From: Alteromonas macleodii ATCC 27126
GTDB taxonomy: Bacteria > Pseudomonadota > Gammaproteobacteria > Enterobacterales > Alteromonadaceae
Assembly: GCF_000172635.2 (NCBI RefSeq)
Contig: NC_018632.1
Coordinates: 2,976,001 to 3,040,000, forward strand
Direction: 5' to 3'
Length of the DNA: 64,000 bases
The notes under the pieces were generated by a model. That model saw only the letters and a program-made list of their open reading frames with translations, ran no database searches and was not told the origin of the DNA. The translations under genes were made by a program, and so were the position numbers. Below, one piece after another: positions 35,840-45,533 of this stretch; position 1 is the stretch's first letter, and every line of letters starts with the position of its first letter.

Positions 35840-36886
35840 TTAGGCGCGTTCAATAAACATAGAATCTCCATAGCTAAAGAATCGATATTCTTTCTCTATC
35901 GCTTCTTGATACGCCTTCATGACATTCTCTTTGCCAGCAAATGCGCTAATTAACATCATTAGCGTGGACTCTGGAAGGTGAAAGTTAGTGAACATTGCGT
36001 CTACCACTTTAAACTCAAAACCAGGGTAGATAAAAATCTCAGTATCTTCGTTAAATGGCGCAATAACTTCCTCGTCACCGCGCTCTGCACTTGCCTTTGC
36101 CGCTGACTCCAAAGAGCGTACAGAGGTTGTACCCACTGCAATAACGCGTTTACCGTTGGCCTTTGTGGTTAAAACAGCGTCAACAACGTCTTGTGGTACT
36201 TCGGCGAACTCTGCGTGCATCTTGTGCTCTTGAATATTATCAACGCGCACAGGCTGGAACGTACCCGCGCCAACGTGCAAAGTTACAAAGGCCAAATTCA
36301 CGCCTTTTTCTTTTAACGCAGCCAGTATTGCATCGTCAAAGTGTAGTCCTGCAGTAGGCGCCGCTACCGCGCCCGGCTTTTGATTGTAAACGGTTTGATA
36401 GCGCTCTTTGTCTGAACTTTCATCGGGACGGTCGATGTAAGGAGGTAGCGGCATGTGGCCATGGGCTTCTAGCAGCGTTAATACGGTCTCATCGTGGTCA
36501 AACTGTAAAATAAATAGCGCATCGTCTCGCCCTGTCACCGTAACATTCACTTTTTCTTCAAGAATAAGCGTAGTTCCAGGTTTAGGTGCCTTGCTCGCGC
36601 GAACATGCGCCAACGCTGTATTGTCTGATGTTATACGTTCGATCAGAACTTCAACCTGTCCGCCCGTTTCCTTTTTGCCCAGTAAACGTGCAGGAATAAC
36701 CCGCGTATTGTTGAACACCAAGAGGTCGCCTGGCTCTACAAATTTCAGCATGTCAGCGAACATCGTGTGCGCTACATTGCCAGTCTTCCCATCTAAATGT
36801 AACAAGCGACTCGCTGTACGTTGCTGAGTTGGGTATTTGGCGATAAGTTTTTCGGGTAGCTCGAAGCTAAAATCTGATAGTTTCAT
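35840..36886 (-). CDS. queA: S-adenosylmethionine:tRNA ribosyltransferase-isomerase QueA
   Basis: Adds the cyclopentyl-like ring from SAM to preQ1 in tRNA during queuosine synthesis. The 348 residues match the family length: [19 protein letters not shown] at the start, [57 protein letters not shown], and GDSMFIERA at the end. It lies upstream of tgt, separated by about 170 bases. High confidence. Confidence 0.98.
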
Positions 36887-37320
36887 AAATACGACTAAAT
36901 TACGGCATAAAAGTTAGACAAAAGTAGAATATTAAGTGTTATTTAAGTTGCAACTAAAGGCTAATAAAAATAGATCTACAGATTAAGCTAAAGTCAAAAT
37001 AAAAACAAAAAATGTTGATTATCAACAAATTAAAAATTAACGTATATTATAAAATAACTTTATATTGAACAATATACGTACAATTCAATTTATTAAATAG
37101 CACTTAACTCCTTAAACGGTTAAGATACCTGCAGATAGTGATGATGTTCTCCCATAAACATTCCTTATCATTCGTACCCAGCACTTGCTGGGTATTTTTT
37201 TATCTGCTTATTTTCCCTGCCTACCTTCACTCATCGCAACGTTATTACGAAGCTTCGATTCCTCTGCGCGACAGGTTAGTTGAATATCGATATCTTATAA
37301 ACGGCGGTATTTTACGCTGT
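36887..37320. other. 434-base AT-rich intergenic region with inverted repeats and an orphan terminator
   Basis: No supportable protein gene. Contains a palindrome TGTTGAT-T-ATCAACA (37013-37027), a long-armed inverted repeat ACGTATATT/AATATACGT (37040-37079), a small hairpin CTTAA-acgg-TTAAG (37111-37124), and a plus-strand terminator (37175-37201). No plus-strand gene precedes the terminator, so a small RNA is possible. Confidence 0.5.
37175..37201 (+). terminator. Orphan plus-strand rho-independent terminator
   Basis: TACCCAGC-actt-GCTGGGTA followed by seven T. There is a T-run only in the plus direction. No gene on the plus strand lies upstream before queA, which runs the other way. Confidence 0.7.
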
Positions 37321-37596
37321 TTATTGCTGAAGATCAGTTAAGATTTCCTCTAAAAGCGCCGCATCTAATGGACGCGCCTTCAACACGTACAAAATCTGCA
37401 GAAGTAAATCGGCGCCCATAATACCTTTATTTACCTTATTTCTAAGATTATCTGCGCTTTGCTCCACGCCAATCTCTTCCAGCCTTTGGCTTAACGCTTG
37501 ATATTTTACGCCGCGCACAGACATCTCAGATTTCACGACTCTTGCTACCGTTTGCCGCCACGCATTTTTAGCACCTTGCGTATTTCCAGTGTTCAC
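37321..37596 (-). CDS. DUF6471-type small protein
   Basis: A 91-residue protein that resembles DUF6471 (from memory): WRQTVARVVKSEMSVRGVKYQALSQRLEEIGVEQSADNLRNKVNKGIMGADLLLQILYVL. The arrangement of helices recalls a helix-turn-helix DNA-binding protein, so a regulator is possible but unproven. The preferred start is the GTG at 37596, four bases after GGAGG; an upstream GTG at 37614 would include the RBS in the coding region. It is divergent from the yjfI-like gene at 37864 and may regulate that locus. Confidence 0.7.
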   Translation of the reverse strand: MNTGNTQGAKNAWRQTVARVVKSEMSVRGVKYQALSQRLEEIGVEQSADNLRNKVNKGIMGADLLLQILYVLKARPLDAALLEEILTDLQQ

Positions 37597-37674
37597 ACAG
37601 CCTCCAAAAACCACACAAATGTGATATATATTTTACAAAACACACTTTTTTACACTTATAGCATGTATTTAATG

Positions 37675-37704
37675 TTGACGATTATGGCACAACAGGTCTA
37701 CACT
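37675..37704 (+). promoter_or_regulatory. Probable promoter of the yjf-like locus
   Basis: TTGACG (37675-37680), 18-base spacer, TACACT (37699-37704), giving a leader of about 150 bases before the gene at 37864. Confidence 0.5.
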
Positions 37705-37863
37705 GCAAGTCTAGATATTGGCGAAGATGAAAATAGTCGTTACAGTAACTTCGGTGGTTAATACAGCAAAGTATCTGTTTTTAATAAAGTGCAGTTGTAT
37801 AACACACCACTTACACGACATTCATTTTCACAACTATCGCTTCAATAATTAAAGGAGAAAGGT

Positions 37864-38253
37864 ATGAGCTGGGAACTGGAAAGCATCGAAGCCTTATTTA
37901 AAGAGCATGATGACTTTGTGGTAACACGTGAGGAAAACTGCTTACTTATTGCTAATCAAGACGGCATAGATGCCTGGCTTGCTATCAGCGGAGAGCAGAT
38001 CTTAGTAGAGAGTCTTTTGTTTGCAGCGTCGGAAGTAAAAGATAAGCCAGCGCTAGATCATGAAATATTGTCTACTCATATGGTGTTCCCTTTGACCACG
38101 GTAGGCATTTCAAACATTGGTGGTGAAGAGTACTACACTGCCTTTGGTGCGCTAAGTGCCCAGTCAAAAGCCGAAAGTATCGTTATTGAAGTGGAAACCC
38201 TGTTTCAGAATGTTGCATCTTTCTTAGATGCCTACGAAACACACCTTAACTAA
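37864..38253 (+). CDS. yjfI: DUF2170 protein (YjfI-like)
   Basis: A 129-residue soluble protein, acidic, with no signal peptide or membrane segment. Features include WELESIEALFKEHDD at the start, DAWLAISGEQILVESLLF, and the region LDHEILSTHMVFPLTTVGI. It corresponds to E. coli YjfI, first gene of yjfIJKLMC, whose role is unknown. A strong RBS (AAAGGAG) precedes the ATG. The next gene, a PspA-like protein, starts 23 bases later; a chaperone or partner role is only a guess. Confidence 0.85.
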   Translation: MSWELESIEALFKEHDDFVVTREENCLLIANQDGIDAWLAISGEQILVESLLFAASEVKDKPALDHEILSTHMVFPLTTVGISNIGGEEYYTAFGALSAQSKAESIVIEVETLFQNVASFLDAYETHLN

Positions 38254-38276
38254 AATTTACTTCTAAGGAGAAGCGA

Positions 38277-38957
38277 ATGTCAGTGTGGAAAAAATTAGTA
38301 ACTGCAGTAAAAGGTGGTGCAACCGAAGCTGCTCAATCTGTCGTAGACAGTCAGGCTATTCGAATTCTGGAACAAGAAATTAGAGAAGCCAAAGAAGAAT
38401 TGCGTAAGTCAGACCATGCACGTACCCAAATCTTGGCAAAGTGTAAACTTTCTCAGCAAAAAGTGGATAGCTTCAATTCGTCAATTGCGGAATACGAAGC
38501 TCACGCGCGCAAGGCCATCGATAGCGACCGCCAACTCGCGTTAGACTGTGCGCAAAAGGTGTCCGAACTTAAAGAAGAACGAGACCAAGAACAAACATAT
38601 CTTGATCAGTTCCAGCAGTCAGAAAAGCAGCTGGCACAAAATATCCAACAGGCGAAAGCGAATTTACGTCGCTTAGAGCAGCAAGTGGATATGGTAAAAG
38701 CCACTGAAAGCGTTCAGAAGGCGCAAGTAGCGGTTTCTTCACGCCACATGGGTGCGAATAGCAAAATGAAAACGGCGACAGAGTCACTGTCACGTATTCA
38801 AGATAAGCAAAAGATGCGCAATGCTGAGCTACAAGCTGCAGAAGAGTTAGCAAACAATGAATCGAGCAGCGATCTAGAAAAACGCTTAGCCGAAGCGGGC
38901 ATTAAAGGGGGTAAAACCTCGGCCGATGACGAGCTAGCGCGAATTCTAGGCAAGTAA
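38277..38957 (+). CDS. yjfJ: PspA/IM30-family membrane-remodelling protein (YjfJ-like)
   Basis: A 226-residue, almost entirely helical, charged protein of the PspA/IM30 (ESCRT-III-like) superfamily. PspA proteins bind stressed inner membranes and form scaffolds. The coiled coil runs from about residue 25 to 170 (for example LEQEIREAKEELRKSDHARTQ and KANLRRLEQQVDMVKATESVQKAQ). The C-terminal part ends in a short conserved tail, TSADDELARILGK. It matches E. coli YjfJ rather than canonical PspA, since no pspBC or pspF is nearby. A terminator-like hairpin (38963-38991) follows. Confidence 0.9.
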   Translation: MSVWKKLVTAVKGGATEAAQSVVDSQAIRILEQEIREAKEELRKSDHARTQILAKCKLSQQKVDSFNSSIAEYEAHARKAIDSDRQLALDCAQKVSELKEERDQEQTYLDQFQQSEKQLAQNIQQAKANLRRLEQQVDMVKATESVQKAQVAVSSRHMGANSKMKTATESLSRIQDKQKMRNAELQAAEELANNESSSDLEKRLAEAGIKGGKTSADDELARILGK

Positions 38958-38962
38958 GTTAG

Positions 38963-38991
38963 AAAAATGGGAGCTACGCGCTCCCATTTTT
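38963..38991 (+). terminator. Terminator or attenuator after the PspA-like gene
   Basis: AAAAATGGGAGC-tacgc-GCTCCCATTTTT followed by AATTCTT. It would end the yjfI-yjfJ transcript, or attenuate it, before the channel gene. Confidence 0.8.
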
Positions 38992-39105
38992 AATTCTTGT
39001 TACAATAATTTCCTGCGTAAATTACTGTTAAGTAAAGCGCGAATCTAGACAAATCAAGTACTTCAAGGCAGAGTAAGGGCACGCATAACAAGGGCTGTTT
39101 CTTTT

Positions 39106-40161
39106 ATGTCTCCATGGATAAAACTGCGAAAAATCATGCTGCAATATTTTGCAGAATCACGTTGGTACACCATTGTCGGTGCCACCGCCTTTTACGCAGT
39201 AACAAGTTATTGGCTGCTATACGCTGCAGACGAGCACGATTTAATTACCAACGCCGACTTTGTTTACTGGCTGGCGGTCACCGCCTCTACAGTGGGCTAT
39301 GGTGATTTGTCACCCGTCACGCCAGCGGGAAAACTGATTGTAGCGCTTTACGTCATACCGCTTGGTTTGAGTATCTTCGCCATGGTAATTGGCCGGATTG
39401 CAGCTTGGGTTTCATTAACGTGGAAGAAAGGATTGTTGGGTATGAACAGCTTGATACTAAATGAGCATATCTTGGTAATTGGGTGGAATGAGCAGCGTAC
39501 TATGCTGCTGCTTGATTTAATACTGCAAGAACGCGATGCCATGCCAGAGCGCCCCGATATTGTACTGTGCGTGAAGGCCGACATCACTAATCCCATGCCT
39601 GGCGTGATTGAGTTCGTGAAGGTAGATTCGTTTAACAAAGACGAAGATATGGATCGCGCCTGCGTGTCCACCGCCCGAACTATTCTTATCGATAACCCAC
39701 AAGACGATGTCACCATGACTACCGCGCTGTATTGTACTAAGCGTAATCCTGATGCACATCAGGTGGCTTATTTTGATGATGATAGTCTAGTGAGCTTACT
39801 TCAGGATCACTGCCCTAAAGTGGAGTGTACACCCAGCGTGGCAATAGAAATGTTAGTTAAAGCCGCTTTTGATCCTGGTTCAAGTATGCTTCATCACGAC
39901 TTACTGAGTATTGAAGAAGGCCAGGCGCAATTTTCAGTAAAAATACCAGAAAGTAGCCACGCCATTTCTGTTGCTAAGTTATTTATTAATTTGAAACGTA
40001 AACACGATGCCATCTTTATTGGTTATGCGCCAAATGGTCTTGTGAAAGAAATGGTGGTAAACCCACCGTTGGACGTTACGTTAAACCCGGGCGACACTTT
40101 GTTTTACATTGCTGAGCGCCGCATTAACGCAATTAACTGGTCTTCTCTAGACGCTGATTAA
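39106..40161 (+). CDS. Potassium channel with RCK-like cytoplasmic domain
   Basis: A 351-residue inner-membrane channel of the two-segment KcsA/MthK type. The first membrane helix is at about 22-41 and the pore helix and selectivity filter are TVGYGD (62-67), which is the K+ signature. A second helix (about 74-98) follows. The C-terminal half has a Rossmann-like TrkA-N domain (HILVIGWNEQRTMLLLDLIL, where the usual GxGxxG is GWNEQR) and a TrkA-C-like end. There is no counterpart in the E. coli yjf operon. It lies between the yjfJ-like and yjfK-like genes, 11 bases before the latter. Confidence 0.92.
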   Translation: MSPWIKLRKIMLQYFAESRWYTIVGATAFYAVTSYWLLYAADEHDLITNADFVYWLAVTASTVGYGDLSPVTPAGKLIVALYVIPLGLSIFAMVIGRIAAWVSLTWKKGLLGMNSLILNEHILVIGWNEQRTMLLLDLILQERDAMPERPDIVLCVKADITNPMPGVIEFVKVDSFNKDEDMDRACVSTARTILIDNPQDDVTMTTALYCTKRNPDAHQVAYFDDDSLVSLLQDHCPKVECTPSVAIEMLVKAAFDPGSSMLHHDLLSIEEGQAQFSVKIPESSHAISVAKLFINLKRKHDAIFIGYAPNGLVKEMVVNPPLDVTLNPGDTLFYIAERRINAINWSSLDAD

Positions 40162-40172
40162 GAGGCGTAAAC

Positions 40173-40817
40173 ATGTTTAGTAAACTATTTAAAAAATCAG
40201 AACCTAAAAAACCTAAGTCGCCAGAAATAATGGGGCTTTATTTAGGTGGCTCTTTCGAGTTAGATAACTTGAAACTTTCGCTATTAGAACCGGAGCTCAC
40301 TATTGAAGGCGCAGCCCGTTCTCAATTAATTCAAGCGGTAGGAGAAGCGCCCTTAGATACAGGTGGCACTCTGCTTCGCTTTTACACCGACGACGATGGA
40401 TTTTTACAGGTGGTCACCGACGGCGGCTTGTCTGAGAATCACATTACCGATGTTAAGCTGTGGCACTTTTATGAAACGAAAACCATTGGTAATACTGCTC
40501 AGTGGAACGAATGCTTGAAAAACATTATCAGCCAGCCCACCTATGAGCTTGACGGTAAGGTCTATATCCGCGTGTGGGGGGCAGTGGGCGATGAGTCACC
40601 GCCTGTTGCCGTCACTGAAACTACCTATGAAGAAGATGGTGATGTGAGTACTACTGATCAGTTTATGATGCTGTATGAACGCCCAATCAGTAATGACAGA
40701 GTTGAAACCCTGCTTGTTGTGGGTGAAGAAAAGCAAGTAGGTAATAATTTAGATAGATGTTTGGTGATTTCAACGGGGTTTGATGTTGAACCTGCAGATA
40801 TCACTATAAACGGTTAA
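40173..40817 (+). CDS. yjfK: DUF2491 protein (YjfK-like)
   Basis: A 214-residue soluble protein with a basic N-terminus (FKKSEPKKPKSPEIMGLYLGGSFEL) and the body VEGAARSQLIQAVGEAPLDTGGTLLRFYTDDDGFLQV in family order (here IEGAARS). It corresponds to E. coli YjfK (DUF2491), of unknown function. It has no signal peptide. It is tightly spaced with the channel gene upstream and the DUF350 gene (15 bases) downstream, so all are probably one transcript. Confidence 0.87.
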   Translation: MFSKLFKKSEPKKPKSPEIMGLYLGGSFELDNLKLSLLEPELTIEGAARSQLIQAVGEAPLDTGGTLLRFYTDDDGFLQVVTDGGLSENHITDVKLWHFYETKTIGNTAQWNECLKNIISQPTYELDGKVYIRVWGAVGDESPPVAVTETTYEEDGDVSTTDQFMMLYERPISNDRVETLLVVGEEKQVGNNLDRCLVISTGFDVEPADITING

Positions 40818-40832
40818 TAAAAGGGAATAACT

Positions 40833-41249
40833 ATGGATACGATCATGCAATCTTTGGCTGGCCTGGATAACTTTGCGCTTTACTTCGGCTTGTCGATTGT
40901 TTTTTTGTTTATCTTCAAATTGGTGTACGCCTTGGTCACACCTCACGATGAATGGAAGCTGGTAAAAGAAGAGAAAAACGTTGCCGCTGCCATCGGCTTT
41001 GGTGGCGCTATAATCGGTTTTGCCATCGCCCTTGGCAGCGCAGCTTCAAACTCGGTTGCTGTAGTAGATTTTGCTATTTGGGCGCTTGTTGCTGTGATTG
41101 CACAATCCCTAGCGTTTGCCATTTTGCGTTTCAGCTTTATGCCGAAAATCGCTGAGCGCATAAACAATAACGAAGTTTCTGCGGGCGTTATGCTTGCCAG
41201 CATGTCTATTGCCGTAGGCTTACTCAATGCCGCTTGCATGACCTATTAA
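40833..41249 (+). CDS. yjfL: DUF350 membrane protein (YjfL-like)
   Basis: A 138-residue inner-membrane protein with four hydrophobic segments, corresponding to E. coli YjfL (DUF350). Segments are at about 13-33, 48-69, 75-98 and 115-136 (for example AAAIGFGGAIIGFAIALGSAA and GVMLASMSIAVGLLNAACM). DUF350 proteins often co-occur with PspA-like proteins and ATP-grasp ligases. Function unknown; a membrane partner of PspA or of the channel is a possible role. Confidence 0.88.
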   Translation: MDTIMQSLAGLDNFALYFGLSIVFLFIFKLVYALVTPHDEWKLVKEEKNVAAAIGFGGAIIGFAIALGSAASNSVAVVDFAIWALVAVIAQSLAFAILRFSFMPKIAERINNNEVSAGVMLASMSIAVGLLNAACMTY

Positions 41250-41259
41250 GGGGGCAGCG

Positions 41260-41928
41260 ATGACTGATAAACGAAATACTCAGCTTGATGTTATTGATAG
41301 CGTGCAAGGTGAGAAGCCCGCATTAAAACGCACCAAACATATTGACCTTGGTCGCATGCGCAAAGGTTTTAGCGTGAAGCCTTTAGCATTGGGTGTGGCC
41401 AGCGTTATTTTAAGTGGTTGTGGCGGCGAAAAAGAAGACGCCACTATTTACACCTCGCTAGAAGACTGTAAACAGGATTTTCCTGATGCAGTAGAGCGTT
41501 GTGAAGCTGCCTACCAGACAGCGGTCGACGAGGCCATGCGCACCAGTCCGCGCTTTAGCTCTGAGTACGACTGCGAACATGAATTTGGCCCTAACCAGTG
41601 CCAATATGTGAATAATAGTAGCGGCAGCTTTTTCATGCCGTTCATGGCAGGCTACATGGTGAGCTCTCTGCTATCGCCAAATCGCTATTACTCACAGCCC
41701 TTATATACTTCCTATTCATATAATTCACCGTTTCGTTCACGCTGGATAACGGCAGACGGCTATGTGTTCGACGGTGACATTCGCAAAAGAAAATATCGCG
41801 TAAACAAAGACGTTTATAAGCCTAAGCCTACCGTGAACCGCACAATGAAACGAGGCGGGTTTGGTAGCAGCGTTCGTGCAAAATCATCTTGGGGTAGCAG
41901 CAGCCGTAAAGGCGGCTGGGGCGGATAA
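41260..41928 (+). CDS. yjfM: DUF1190 protein (YjfM/YgiB-like) with Gly-Gly C-terminus
   Basis: A 222-residue protein of the DUF1190 family. Residues 24-34 ([11 protein letters not shown]) are the family's basic N-terminal patch; residues 41-54 ([14 protein letters not shown]) are hydrophobic with a lipobox-like end at Cys54, unusually far from the N-terminus. The middle holds conserved cysteines ([33 protein letters not shown]) and a Gly-rich turn [12 protein letters not shown]. The tail is low-complexity Ser/Gly/Lys ([13 protein letters not shown]) and ends ...GGWGG. An ATP-grasp amide ligase begins two bases after its stop. Whether it is a lipoprotein is uncertain. Confidence 0.87.
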
Positions 41929-41930
41929 CT

Positions 41931-43097
41931 ATGTTTAGAATGCCTTGCCAGCCTCGCAAGGGCTGGCAGCAGTTGGCTAACGAGTTTGGTTTTCATTTCC
42001 ACACCATGTATGGCGAGCCTTATTGGGATGAAAGTGCCTACTACCAATTCACGCTAGCGCAAATTGAAAACGACATTGAAGACCCCACAGCCGAGCTACA
42101 TCAAATGTGCTTGGCAGTGACCGAAGATGTGGTTAATAGTGAGGAATTACTTACTCGTTTTCGAATTCCAGAGCAACATTGGGACTTAGTAAGAGACAGC
42201 TGGCAGGAAAGAGCCCCCAGTTTGTATTCACGCCTTGACCTTGTCTACAGCGGCAAAGGGCCAGCTAAGCTGCTAGAAAATAATGCAGATACGCCCACCA
42301 GCTTGTATGAATCTGGGTTTTGGCAGTGGCTGTGGCTTTCACAAAATGTGGATGCCGGCAAACTCGCCCTGCACGCTGATCAGTTCAATAGCTTGCAAGA
42401 AAAACTAGTTCATCGCTTTCGCGAAATAGCATTGCACTACAACATTAATCAACTGCACATGGCGTGTTGTAAAGATACCGTAGAAGACCGCGGAACAGTG
42501 CAGTACCTACAAGACTGCGCTACAGAGGCCGGGCTTTTAGCTGACTTCGTTTTTATTGAAGACATTGGGTTAGCGGACACGGGCGTTTTTACCGATCTTC
42601 AAGACGCGCCAATTACAGACTGCTTCAAGCTTTATCCTTGGGAGTTTATGCTGCGCGAAGAGTTTGGCGATGTGTTAGAAGGTGCCCAAGTTAATTGGAT
42701 AGAGCCCCCATGGAAATCGATAATTTCCAATAAAGCCTTGCTTCCTCAGCTTTGGAATAAATTTGAAGGCCACCCTAACCTGCTTCCCGCTTATTTTTCA
42801 GATGAAATAAACACAAACACACTATCAGGAAAGTGGATTAAAAAGCCTCTGTTTTCAAGGGAGGGCGCGAATGTTTCTATCATTGAAGGTGGAATTGAGA
42901 ATAGGCTTAGCGATGGTCCTTACGGCGAAGAAGGCTATATTGTTCAAGTATTTGAACCTTTACCCGTTTTTGAAGGTAACCATACACTCATAGGTAGTTG
43001 GTTGGTAGATGACATGCCAGCAGGTATTTCAGTAAGAGAAGATGTATCTGCTATTACCCAAGATCTCTCTCGCTACCTTCCTCATATTATTTTGTAA
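41931..43097 (+). CDS. yjfC: Glutathionylspermidine synthase-like ATP-grasp ligase (YjfC/YgiC-like)
   Basis: A 388-residue ATP-grasp enzyme related to the synthetase half of E. coli glutathionylspermidine synthase, which joins a glycine carboxylate to a polyamine. Typical parts include [79 protein letters not shown], and the substrate/ATP region [20 protein letters not shown]. It ends [17 protein letters not shown]. It lacks the amidase domain of Gss. It lies directly after the DUF1190 gene, the same pairing as ygiB-ygiC and yjfM-yjfC in E. coli. Its real substrate is unknown. Confidence 0.9.
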
Positions 43098-43116
43098 TCT
43101 ACTTTAGGGGCGTTCG

Positions 43117-43656
43117 ATGAAGCCGCTTTCTTTCCAAATTCGCGTTCTACTGACGCTAGGTGCATTGTTAATCGTAATAGAAGTAGCAAACTTACTTACC
43201 GGCAATGCACTTAATCAGTTTGGTGTAGTGCCTCGTACACTGTCAACCTTGCCATATATATTCACAGCCCCTTTCCTTCACGGTACACCCACGCATTTGA
43301 TGGCTAACTTGGTGCCTCTTTTGCTGTTCATGTGGCTTACTATGCAGTGGGGAAAACGCACGTTTCTTATCGCTACGCTAAGCGCACTGCTTATAGGTGG
43401 TTTGGGCGTGTGGCTGTTCGGTAGAAGCGCTACGCATATTGGCGCGAGCGGCATGGTATATGGCTACTTCGGCTTCCTCGTGCTAGCAGGATTTAGAAGT
43501 AACAAAGTGCGGTATTTGCTTATTTCACTAGTAGTTGCAGCGCTATACGGAGGAATGCTGGTTGGTGTGCTTCCCACATCCAAATTTATTTCCTTTGAAT
43601 ATCATCTGTTTGGCTTTATTGGCGGCTTATTTGCCGCATGGCACTGGGCACGCTAA
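43117..43656 (+). CDS. Rhomboid-family intramembrane serine protease
   Basis: A 179-residue, six-segment membrane protease. The catalytic dyad is visible: Ser111 in GASGMVYGYFG and His163 in EYHLFGFIGG. The oxyanion HxxxN motif is HLMAN (His60, Asn64). Rhomboids cleave membrane-spanning proteins. It starts 19 bases after the ATP-grasp gene, so it is probably in the same transcription unit. E. coli yjf and ygi loci have no rhomboid. A substrate among the neighbouring membrane proteins is conceivable, but only by position. Confidence 0.9.
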   Translation: MKPLSFQIRVLLTLGALLIVIEVANLLTGNALNQFGVVPRTLSTLPYIFTAPFLHGTPTHLMANLVPLLLFMWLTMQWGKRTFLIATLSALLIGGLGVWLFGRSATHIGASGMVYGYFGFLVLAGFRSNKVRYLLISLVVAALYGGMLVGVLPTSKFISFEYHLFGFIGGLFAAWHWAR

Positions 43657-43702
43657 TTAGTTTACGTATAATTAGCCTCAAGATAAGACGTTGTAATTAG
43701 AT

Positions 43703-44404
43703 ATGTCAGCAGTACAAGAACCTACACAAAAAAACCAAGGCTTTTTCGGCAACCTCGCGTTTAACATTGTTATTCCTGTGGTGCTAATGAGCTATGCAAG
43801 TTCGGAAGATTACCTAGGCCCTGCGTGGAGCATTGTGGCGGCACTCAGCTTTCCTATTGGTTATGGCCTATGGGATTTAAAAGAGTCGGGAAAGGTCAAC
43901 GGCTTTTCCATTTTAGGCATTATCAGCGTACTACTTACCGGCGGGTTTAGCTTACTTAAACTGCCCGCAGAGTATATTGCGATAAAAGAAGCCGCTATCC
44001 CAGGCATTATCGGTATTGCTGTACTGGTAACCCAGTACTCTAATAAACCCTTGGTCAAAATGCTTATTTTGAACGACCAAATCATAAACTGGCCACACCT
44101 AAACCAAGTTCTTGATGCGAAAGGAAAGCAGAGCGAGTTTAAAAAGAAAGTCGCGGTTAGCTCTTACATCGTAGCCAGTTCGTTTTTCCTCTCTTCTGCA
44201 CTTAACTATATTTTAGCTAAAATGATTTTGGTCAGTGAGCCAGGCACTACGGCCTACACTGAAGAGCTTGGCCGAATGACTGCGCTTAGCTATCCAGTCA
44301 TTGTGATCCCGAGCATGATTTTGCTTATTGCAGCGCTCTGGTATTTATTCGCTCAAATCAAAAAAATTACTGGCGAAGAACTCGATAACTTTATTAATCA
44401 GTAA
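43703..44404 (+). CDS. VC0807-type membrane protein
   Basis: A 233-residue polytopic inner-membrane protein with about six hydrophobic segments (for example IVIPVVLMSYASSEDYLGPAWSIVAALSFPIGYGLWDL and YIVASSFFLSSALNYILAKMIL). The early pattern NxxxPxxxxxxxS with GPxxxxxxAxxFPxxxG is that of the VC0807 family (recognised from memory). Function is unknown. It begins 46 bases after the rhomboid gene and is followed by a terminator-like hairpin. Confidence 0.75.
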   Translation: MSAVQEPTQKNQGFFGNLAFNIVIPVVLMSYASSEDYLGPAWSIVAALSFPIGYGLWDLKESGKVNGFSILGIISVLLTGGFSLLKLPAEYIAIKEAAIPGIIGIAVLVTQYSNKPLVKMLILNDQIINWPHLNQVLDAKGKQSEFKKKVAVSSYIVASSFFLSSALNYILAKMILVSEPGTTAYTEELGRMTALSYPVIVIPSMILLIAALWYLFAQIKKITGEELDNFINQ

Positions 44405-44739
44405 AAAGACAATCGATAAGGGGCTTAACGCCCCTTTAACATGCCCTTCCCTACGACTGAAGCTATTACATATTTTGTAATTTAGGCTACTAAAGCAATT
44501 TCCTGAAACGCAGAAGAATACTAGCCATCAAATTCCCACACCGCTTTTAACCAAAAAGCGTGAGTATTACGTATACTCTCAATGATAAAAATAACCCATT
44601 CTATTAGAACATGTTGGCGCTAATTTAAAGCGCGCATAGCACCTCTAGCATTACGCCACAAGCGCTGAATATTGTGTATTGCGCGCATGCTTGCTCCTTC
44701 ATGTTCACACTAAGACGGTTCAATACGAAACGGCAAATT
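44405..44739. other. 335-base region upstream of the ABC operon
   Basis: After the hairpin at 44418-44440 it holds two short dyads with 5-base spacers, ATTACA-N5-TGTAAT (44465-44481) and GAGTAT-N5-ATACTC (44562-44578), either of which could be an operator. I see no supportable gene. Confidence 0.4.
44418..44440 (+). terminator. Hairpin at the end of the yjf-like locus
   Basis: AAGGGGC-ttaac-GCCCCTT followed by TAAC; a stable stem with a short T-run, 14 bases after the last stop. Confidence 0.55.
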
Positions 44740-45462
44740 ATGCTGACCATAAAAGACTTAAAGAAATCCTTTACACAGACAGGGGCTCCGCTCATCAACA
44801 ACCTTAGCCTTACCGTAAAGACAGGTGAATCGGTGAGTATTCAGGGGGCTTCTGGCTGCGGTAAATCTACCTTGCTGTCGCTTATTGCTGGGTTTGAGAC
44901 GCCCGACGGTGGAGATATTTCGGTAAATGGATTGTCGATTGCTGGCAATAGCAAACTCGATAATACATTTAAAGCGAAGGATATTGATAATTTTCGCAAA
45001 CAGCATTTAGGTATTGTGTTTCAAAGCTTCAATCTATTCGACTGCTTTAATGCGTGGGACAACATTGCCTTTACTGCAAGGCTAAAAGGTAATGTAGATA
45101 ACGACTACCAATTAGCATTAATGGAGCAGCTTGGGATATTACCCCTAGCGCAAAAGCCGCTAAGTCAGTTATCTGGCGGTGAACAGCAGCGCTGTGCCAT
45201 TGCTAGAGCACTTGTACATCGCCCCTCGCTTATCTTGGCCGACGAACCCACCGGCAATTTAGACGAAACCACTAGCGAAACCGTGTCTGACTTACTCTTT
45301 AAAACTTGTAAAGAGGCCAATACTTCTCTTGTTGTGGTAACTCATAGCCAAGACGTCGCAGTAAAAGCAGACGCCGCTTTGCGACTACATAAAGGGGTAT
45401 TAGAGAGTGTGAAATATAAAACTAAAGAACAAACCTTATCTTCACCAGTAGCAGCAAGCTAA
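44740..45462 (+). CDS. ABC exporter ATPase (LolD/MacB-like)
   Basis: A 240-residue ATPase of the lipoprotein-release/MacB subfamily. It has Walker [10 protein letters not shown], the Q-loop IVFQSFNLF, the signature LSGGEQQR, Walker [13 protein letters not shown] and the switch histidine in VVVTHSQD. The ATG at 44740 yields [11 protein letters not shown], the normal start; a longer ORF upstream (44674) adds 22 unlikely residues. It is followed by the large permease and a lipocalin-like lipoprotein, the Att-type (attE-F-G-H) arrangement. Its membrane partner is at 45534. Confidence 0.93.
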
Positions 45463-45533
45463 TTACAGGTGAAAAACGTTAGCGATATGCGCCCTGTGAA
45501 AAACCCACCGAAAACAGCAAGTAGGAAGATAAC

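Follow-up and report, generated by a model that had tools for sequence, protein, structure and literature searches.

A conserved C-terminal tail on a DUF1190 lipoprotein is paired with a YgiC/YjfC-type ligase in a PspA operon of Alteromonas macleodii and may be its substrate

The genome of Alteromonas macleodii ATCC 27126 (a single 4.65-Mb contig, NC_018632.1) carries, within the stretch of 64,000 nt that we analysed (positions 2,976,001 to 3,040,000 of the forward strand; hereafter the window, from whose first letter coordinates are counted), a nine-gene operon that encodes among others a PspA-family protein, a DUF1190 lipoprotein and an ATP-grasp ligase of the YgiC/YjfC family. We found that the DUF1190 protein ends in a basic, Ser/Gly-rich tail composed of the motif RGGFG, a variable spacer and mostly a terminal Gly-Gly, and that tails of this kind recur directly upstream of YgiC/YjfC-type ligases, also where no DUF1190 protein is recognised. 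Our proposal, to which we give about an even chance, is that this tail is the protein substrate of the ligase, capped with a polyamine at its C-terminal glycine, and that it works together with the PspA operon. The pairing of tail and ligase is the new part of our analysis, the operon itself being of a published kind. The features concerned are:

41260..41928, + strand: DUF1190 lipoprotein (YgiB/YjfM type), proposed ligase substrate (Pfam, 174 bits, cut-off 22; lipobox LSGC)
41851..41865, + strand: RGGFG tail motif (G200 and G202 invariant, R198 and F201 nearly invariant in 26 aligned homologues)
41917..41925, + strand: C-terminal Trp-Gly-Gly, proposed ligation site (conserved GG end)
41931..43097, + strand: predicted ATP-grasp peptide-polyamine ligase, YgiC/YjfC family (Pfam GSP_synth, 511 bits; PDB 7uk8 and 7uk6)

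The Pfam score and the lipobox mark the DUF1190 product as a lipoprotein of this family, and a lipobox-like sequence is found in 85 of 99 DUF1190 proteins. Across the 26 aligned homologues the invariant columns comprise four cysteines (C70, C81, C105 and C114), one proline and four glycines, two of the latter lying in RGGFG and one at the penultimate position. Among the DUF1190 proteins of ligase loci 79 of 96 end in GG, 90 of 96 have a glycine at position -2 and 73 of 96 have W, M, F or Y at position -3; internal GG near the DUF1190 ends accounts for 37 of 1776 dipeptides. As controls, the other eight operon families show no GG end among 345 proteins, and 14 of 1488 other open reading frames (ORFs) of at least 200 aa have one. 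The distance from the motif to the C-terminus ranges from 1 to 45 residues, the GG end being mostly kept nonetheless, and the C-terminal part of the protein (median 83 residues) has a median net charge of +8 and is positive in 96 of 99 proteins. Within the source genome the codon pattern of RGGFG has three matches, of which only the one in the DUF1190 gene lies inside such a tail. Both DUF1190 paralogues of E. coli share the tail, YgiB ending in RGGFG...SMGG and YjfM in RGGYG...HWGG. A profile search of DUF1190 against the PDB returned nothing significant. A second membrane segment that would return the tail to the cytosol was considered and rejected: the 17-residue mean hydrophobicity has a median of 0.98 and reaches at least 1.2 in 29 of 99 proteins, which is marginal.

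The ligase (388 aa) has a single GSP_synth domain and is homologous over its full length to E. coli YgiC and YjfC, which are its best PDB matches (7uk8, E=2e-162, and 7uk6, E=3.8e-126, respectively) and from which the activity of the Alteromonas enzyme is predicted. RefSeq names both E. coli proteins peptide--spermidine ligase, and Pederick et al. reportedly described them as peptide-spermidine ligases in 2023. With GspSA the enzyme shares the ATP-grasp fold and the catalytic residues: R101, D103, E116, N118 and R369, placed by eye in an alignment to GspSA, are invariant in 24 aligned ligases and presumably take the catalytic roles of GspSA R316, D318, E330, N332 and R598. It differs from GspSA in having no fused amidase domain and in reading DTPTS (by eye) at the DSASC glutathione-side loop. 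The closest named match, among the best 80 of 593 candidates, is from Alteromonas abrolhosensis (97%, L162), and the homologue at L089, from an f18 genome, is 62% identical. The source genome holds one YgiC/YjfC-type ligase gene; it gave no match to SpeE and a strong one to nspC, so that the natural polyamine may come from a carboxyspermidine-type route. In the searchable papers we found no prior statement of the natural substrate of YgiC/YjfC or of a link between YgiB/YjfM and spermidine; the 2023 work of Pederick et al., which lay outside this search, may hold one.

We surveyed the pairing in genome samples drawn evenly from larger groups, with an order set of 60 loci (L034-L093) and a named set of the best 80 of 593 candidates; since the latter overlaps the unnamed set (in at least four cases, L164/G272, L183/G035, L198/G258 and L224/G276), counts are not to be added across sets. 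In the phylum sample 61 of the 63 genomes with DUF1190 also contain the ligase family (exceptions G376 and G615). In a control of 14 named genomes, E. coli and Caulobacter alone are matched, each by both families. By a strict tail rule, which underlies all set-by-set counts, a tail stands directly upstream of the YgiC/YjfC-type ligase in 58 of 60, 1 of 3, 77 of 80 (the best 80 of 593 candidates) and 0 of 1 (L259) cases, and in 14 of 33 cases in the phylum set. Ten further phylum-set loci have a genuine tail at another position, as judged by reading the printed tails; others have RGGFG without a terminal glycine or GGFG without the arginine. The corresponding figures are 33 of 15093 for background ORFs and 0 of 12 for ligases labelled GspSA-type on the strength of weaker PF03738 matches (here in open frames of 621-656 aa). 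At two GspSA-type loci (L248 and L254) the strict rule matches elsewhere in the locus, apparently by chance.

If the ligase reads the tail, a ligase whose genome lacks a recognised DUF1190 protein should also adjoin a like-tailed protein. There are 30 ligase-bearing genomes with no DUF1190 match, of which 19, together with G467 (weak matches elsewhere), made up a set of 20 loci that was first scanned by a looser tail rule. By the strict rule, a tail was found directly upstream of the ligase in 13 of these 20. None of the 13 tail proteins matched the DUF1190 hidden Markov model at E 1e-5; a smaller search gave 4e-5 for L157 and 9e-6 for L158. The remaining seven loci include five with looser upstream tails (L145, L147, L153, L156 and L160) and two with none (L146 and L161). 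When 10 such upstream proteins were compared with Pfam, seven had no DUF1190 match at E 1 and three had sub-threshold matches; because of these three, a distant relationship of some tail-protein bodies to DUF1190 is possible. A further five of the 30 gave loci of one family, 4 of which have a strict tail upstream; the other 6 hold only GspSA-type or fragment matches.

Some loci show other arrangements next to the ligase. At L265 two small anchored proteins precede it, one with an RGGFG...GGG tail and one with a GGG end only. Two Photobacterium loci (L178 and L201) have a YgiC-type ligase with no tail protein directly upstream, whose partner may be elsewhere or lost. L146 and L263, which belong to one family, have similar upstream proteins that contain CSC and lack a tail, possible alternative partners of their ligases.

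In the mechanism that we propose, the DUF1190 lipoprotein would be made with its basic C-terminal tail, the cytosolic ATP-grasp ligase would recognise the RGGFG part and would join a polyamine (spermidine or a relative) by an amide bond to the C-terminal glycine before export is complete, and the capped, strongly cationic lipoprotein would then act at the envelope by binding anionic lipids or lipopolysaccharide. PspA and its DUF2170 partner would support the inner membrane, while the RCK channel would adjust K+ under membrane stress. Transcription would start from a conserved sigma-70-like promoter, probably under control of a divergently encoded DUF6471 protein, and a hairpin after pspA would keep the distal genes at a lower level. 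We infer the role of the tail as substrate, the timing before export and the physical effect, as well as the roles of DUF6471, DUF350, the rhomboid and VC0807. The chemical core of the system would be the DUF1190 protein and the ligase, often accompanied by DUF350. Polyamine chemistry at a Gly-Gly carboxylate exists in nature, since eukaryotic SUMO is conjugated to spermidine at its LGG carboxylate, according to passages of PMC12270671. SUMO conjugation uses E1/E2 chemistry, whereas here a single ATP-grasp enzyme would suffice.

Several observations weigh against this proposal. The DUF1190 protein looks exported (lipobox-like sequence, invariant Cys), while no signal peptide is apparent in the ligase. 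Not every tail ends in GG: 17 of the 96 proteins lack it, and ends such as GS, SSSS, GE or AHS occur, so that conservation is stronger at the internal motif than at the proposed ligation site. Only the 14 of 33 phylum-set cases given above have the strict tail directly upstream of the ligase, and no tail neighbour was found for the ligases at L146, L161, L178, L201, L259 and L263. The strict rule, moreover, was fixed after tails had been seen, hence its counts are not blind. Finally, the tagging core may work independently of the remaining operon, because E. coli ygiB-ygiC has no PspA or channel nearby and DUF350 is present in only 39 of the 60 order loci.

A broader form of the proposal, which we hold tentatively and at somewhat less than even chances, is that of an overlooked bacterial tagging, in which R-x-G-F-G, a spacer and (aromatic or Met)-G-G mark small envelope proteins and one ATP-grasp enzyme caps the glycine with a polyamine. 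The tagged bodies would then be otherwise dissimilar, the PspA-channel genes would be one of several contexts, and the whole would parallel SUMO-spermidine conjugation with a single enzyme. Alternatively, the tail could be a docking or membrane-binding element, with the ligase making a small peptide-polyamine metabolite or modifying another protein and the pair conserved for shared regulation. This we consider rather unlikely: the better conservation of RGGFG than of the terminal GG, the tails that end in Ser or other residues and the combination of an exported-looking protein with a cytosolic enzyme all suit such an element, but the terminal GG is mostly kept across spacers of 1 to 45 residues, and YgiC/YjfC-type ligases have the tail gene directly upstream, whereas none of the 12 GspSA-type ones does. 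Improbable, in our judgement, is a plain PspA membrane-stress operon in which the channel, DUF350 and the ligase each affect K+ or polyamine pools independently, with tail and ligase product as side issues: PspA, its CesT/Tir-like partner and polyamine genes do recur together, with a role proposed in passages of Ravi et al. 2024 (PMC11237479), and yjfIJKL is up-regulated in heat-evolved E. coli strains according to parts of PMC12492005, but 34 of the 60 order loci have, within the fetched stretch, the DUF1190-ligase pair and neither PspA nor channel (the DUF1190 of L076 being too weak for the search), and the pair stands likewise at ygiBC, which argues for a function of its own.

The remaining genes of the operon, and the hairpin behind it, are:

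37864..38253, + strand: DUF2170 protein, YjfI/BacA-like (Pfam, 135 bits)
38277..38957, + strand: PspA/IM30 family protein, YjfJ type (Pfam PspA_IM30, 127 bits)
39106..40161, + strand: K+ channel with TVGYGD pore and RCK region, MthK type (Pfam Ion_trans_2, 48 bits; phmmer to MthK 3rbz)
40173..40817, + strand: DUF2491 protein, YjfK (Pfam, 272 bits; homologue alignment)
40833..41249, + strand: DUF350 protein, YjfL (Pfam, 128 bits)
43117..43656, + strand: rhomboid protease, probably active (Pfam, 74 bits; conserved HxGASG and last-helix His)
43703..44404, + strand: VC0807-family membrane protein, loosely attached (NF041646, 179 bits, cut-off 65)
44418..44437, + strand: hairpin AAGGGGC-TTAAC-GCCCCTTT, probably closing the unit (read from the sequence; outside the terminator-scan list)

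An initial annotation of this DNA had described nine same-strand genes with short gaps, and we find them as named: all nine ORFs lie on the + strand between 37864 and 44404, separated by 23, 148, 11, 15, 10, 2, 19 and 46 nt as calculated from the coordinates, and each is assigned to its family by Pfam or NCBIfam. Six of them correspond, as that annotation said, to E. coli yjfI-J-K-L-M-C, where the same families follow in the same order without a channel, and its view of a conserved envelope/polyamine operon holds as well. It had also taken the channel for a local insertion and the channel-bearing set for an undescribed one, and here our results differ. A channel is present in 29 of 42 PspA loci (18 of 26 in the order and 11 of 16 in phylum and second-copy loci), which rules out a local insertion and makes its absence in E. 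coli probably a loss rather than a gain in Alteromonas. According to passages of Ravi et al. 2024 (PMC11237479), the third of their groups of PspA operons has a CesT/Tir-PspA dyad and a GSPS-like ATP-grasp ligase, with a K+ channel that senses an intracellular ligand, DUF350, a DUF1190 lipoprotein and DUF2491 as further members; the paper also proposes that PspA systems monitor the polyamine level. The Alteromonas operon fits this description (DUF2170-PspA dyad, ligase, DUF350, DUF1190, DUF2491 and channel), and its first seven genes, channel included, are an already published operon kind with lineage-specific additions, rhomboid and VC0807 being extra here. The words rhomboid and VC0807 are absent from the main text of that paper; its passages do not mention DUF6471 or the conserved C-terminal tail, for which no full-text search was made.

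The fold of DUF2170 is that of a CesT/Tir-type chaperone according to passages of PMC11237479 and PMC10948618. P. aeruginosa BacA, a DUF2170 protein, is chaperone-like in fold and has a role in biofilms according to parts of the latter, and its operon bacA-F is likewise headed by DUF2170 and PspA; a sigma-54 site is proposed there (PMC10948618), whereas a sigma-70-like promoter is conserved in Alteromonas. The extra genes of the Alteromonas operon were not seen in the E. coli yjf and ygi stretches, the stretch examined stopping at yjfC. Residues 53-336 of the channel align with MthK 50-322 (phmmer, 3rbz, E=2.8e-21), pore first and RCK second, which assigns it to the MthK type. For DUF2491 a PDB profile search gave nothing significant, and Rfam had nothing at gathering score within 36500-45500. 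Domains of the classical Psp neighbours PspB, PspC and PspF are absent from the nine genes and DUF6471. Six loci (L110, L119, L120, L124, L126 and L128) show a rearranged layout, with ligase-PspA-DUF2170 opposite to (channel)-DUF2491-DUF350-DUF1190. The source genome contains three PspA-family genes, the operon copy and two others (G000:C1:1197144-1197785 and 3708362-3709018), and two DUF350 genes, the second of which lies outside the window and carries two domains in tandem (G000:C1:3084958-3085815; L137:4950-5879). Around the latter a GIY-YIG-like ORF was noticed by eye and no PspA/polyamine operon was seen in L137.

Three features bear on expression, of which the initial annotation had overlooked the first two, as it had the DUF1190 tail:

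37321..37614, - strand: divergently encoded DUF6471 protein of 97 aa, candidate regulator of the operon (Pfam DUF6471, 87 bits)
37675..37704, + strand: sigma-70-like promoter TTGACG-18-TACACT (9 of 12 matches)
38963..38991, + strand: intrinsic-terminator-like hairpin 3' of pspA, 12-bp stem with A- and T-tracts (terminator scan)

A DUF6471 gene lies divergently and directly upstream of DUF2170 in 19 loci; these are L097 and all 18 order-set loci that have a channel. None of the 7 assessable channel-less PspA loci of the order set has it there (L056 is cut at that point). Ten other channel-bearing loci, two of them from order genomes (L134 and L135), have no DUF6471, which is thus not a fixed partner of the channel. 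Its product may be a DNA-binding regulator of the operon; its PDB profile matches are not significant. Both boxes of the promoter (TTGAC[CG]...TACACT) are kept in 7 of 7 aligned intergenic regions, from the window and six genus-mates. As a class, terminator-like sites are not in excess (11 observed, 9.7 in shuffles), and the hairpin in the window rests on the window terminator scan. The cross-locus survey, which counts other loci and had no shuffle control, covered 15 loci where pspA and the channel gene are 72 nt or more apart; in 13 of them a T-tailed hairpin starts 5-21 nt past the pspA stop, the exceptions being L098 and L099. Eight loci with a gap of at most 20 nt have no junction hairpin, the matches in L053, L066 and L134 lying inside the channel gene. 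The hairpin is thus conserved in position, its stem sequences differing between loci, which supports the earlier suggestion that the two halves of the operon can be expressed differently.

The rhomboid and VC0807 genes, seen in the initial annotation as appended to the operon, were followed through a family sample of 147 genomes, 67 of them with DUF1190, adjacency being defined as downstream, on the same strand and within 6 kb. In these 67 genomes the rhomboid lies 3' of the ligase in 41 (15 genera), VC0807 in 37 (13 genera) and both in 33; the counts omit 21 low-scoring VC0807 rows and also most second rhomboid copies, and a by-eye check of the five omitted VC0807 rows from DUF1190 genomes found none adjacent. 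At the distant locus L098 a related rhomboid lies between pspA and the channel. Neither channel nor rhomboid is thus found beside these genes in this genome only. The HxGASG motif and the last-helix His are kept in 12 of 12 aligned rhomboids (window, 10 family loci and L098). Identity as a rhombosortase was rejected (TIGR03902, 34.3 bits, cut-off 84). In 12 full-operon family loci rhomboid and VC0807 each occur in 10 and the next downstream ABC ATPase in 4. On the other flank DUF6471 stands beside the operon in all 12 and QueA in 11 (the twelfth locus, L045, ends near there), and because these genes are equally syntenic, adjacency counts for less as functional proof. The two genes are indeed recurrent additions, yet the case for their membership is weakened; a link of the rhomboid to the operon is plausible and that of VC0807 weaker. 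A promoter-like site (43645-43672, 10 of 12 matches) lies at the rhomboid-VC0807 junction just before VC0807, which may have its own transcription.

A stronger reading makes both genes true parts of the system, with the rhomboid cutting a membrane protein of the operon (e.g. a mis-inserted or released lipoprotein) and so switching the response off. It would be compatible with polyamine capping, and we regard it as possible though doubtful. The rhomboid starts on the same strand 19 nt past the ligase, its downstream position recurs across 15 genera, its catalytic motif is intact also in the copy inside the L098 operon, and synteny falls off at the ABC ATPase, directly beyond the two genes; but synteny is as tight at DUF6471 and QueA, a promoter-like site precedes VC0807, which is far away in several genera, and 26 of the 67 genomes have no rhomboid at that place, some through contig ends.

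Returning to the proposal that the DUF1190 tail is capped with a polyamine, the tail names specific substrate candidates for YgiC/YjfC in E. coli K-12, YgiB and YjfM. If true, the capping would be a new bacterial C-terminal protein modification and would link polyamines to the PspA envelope response.

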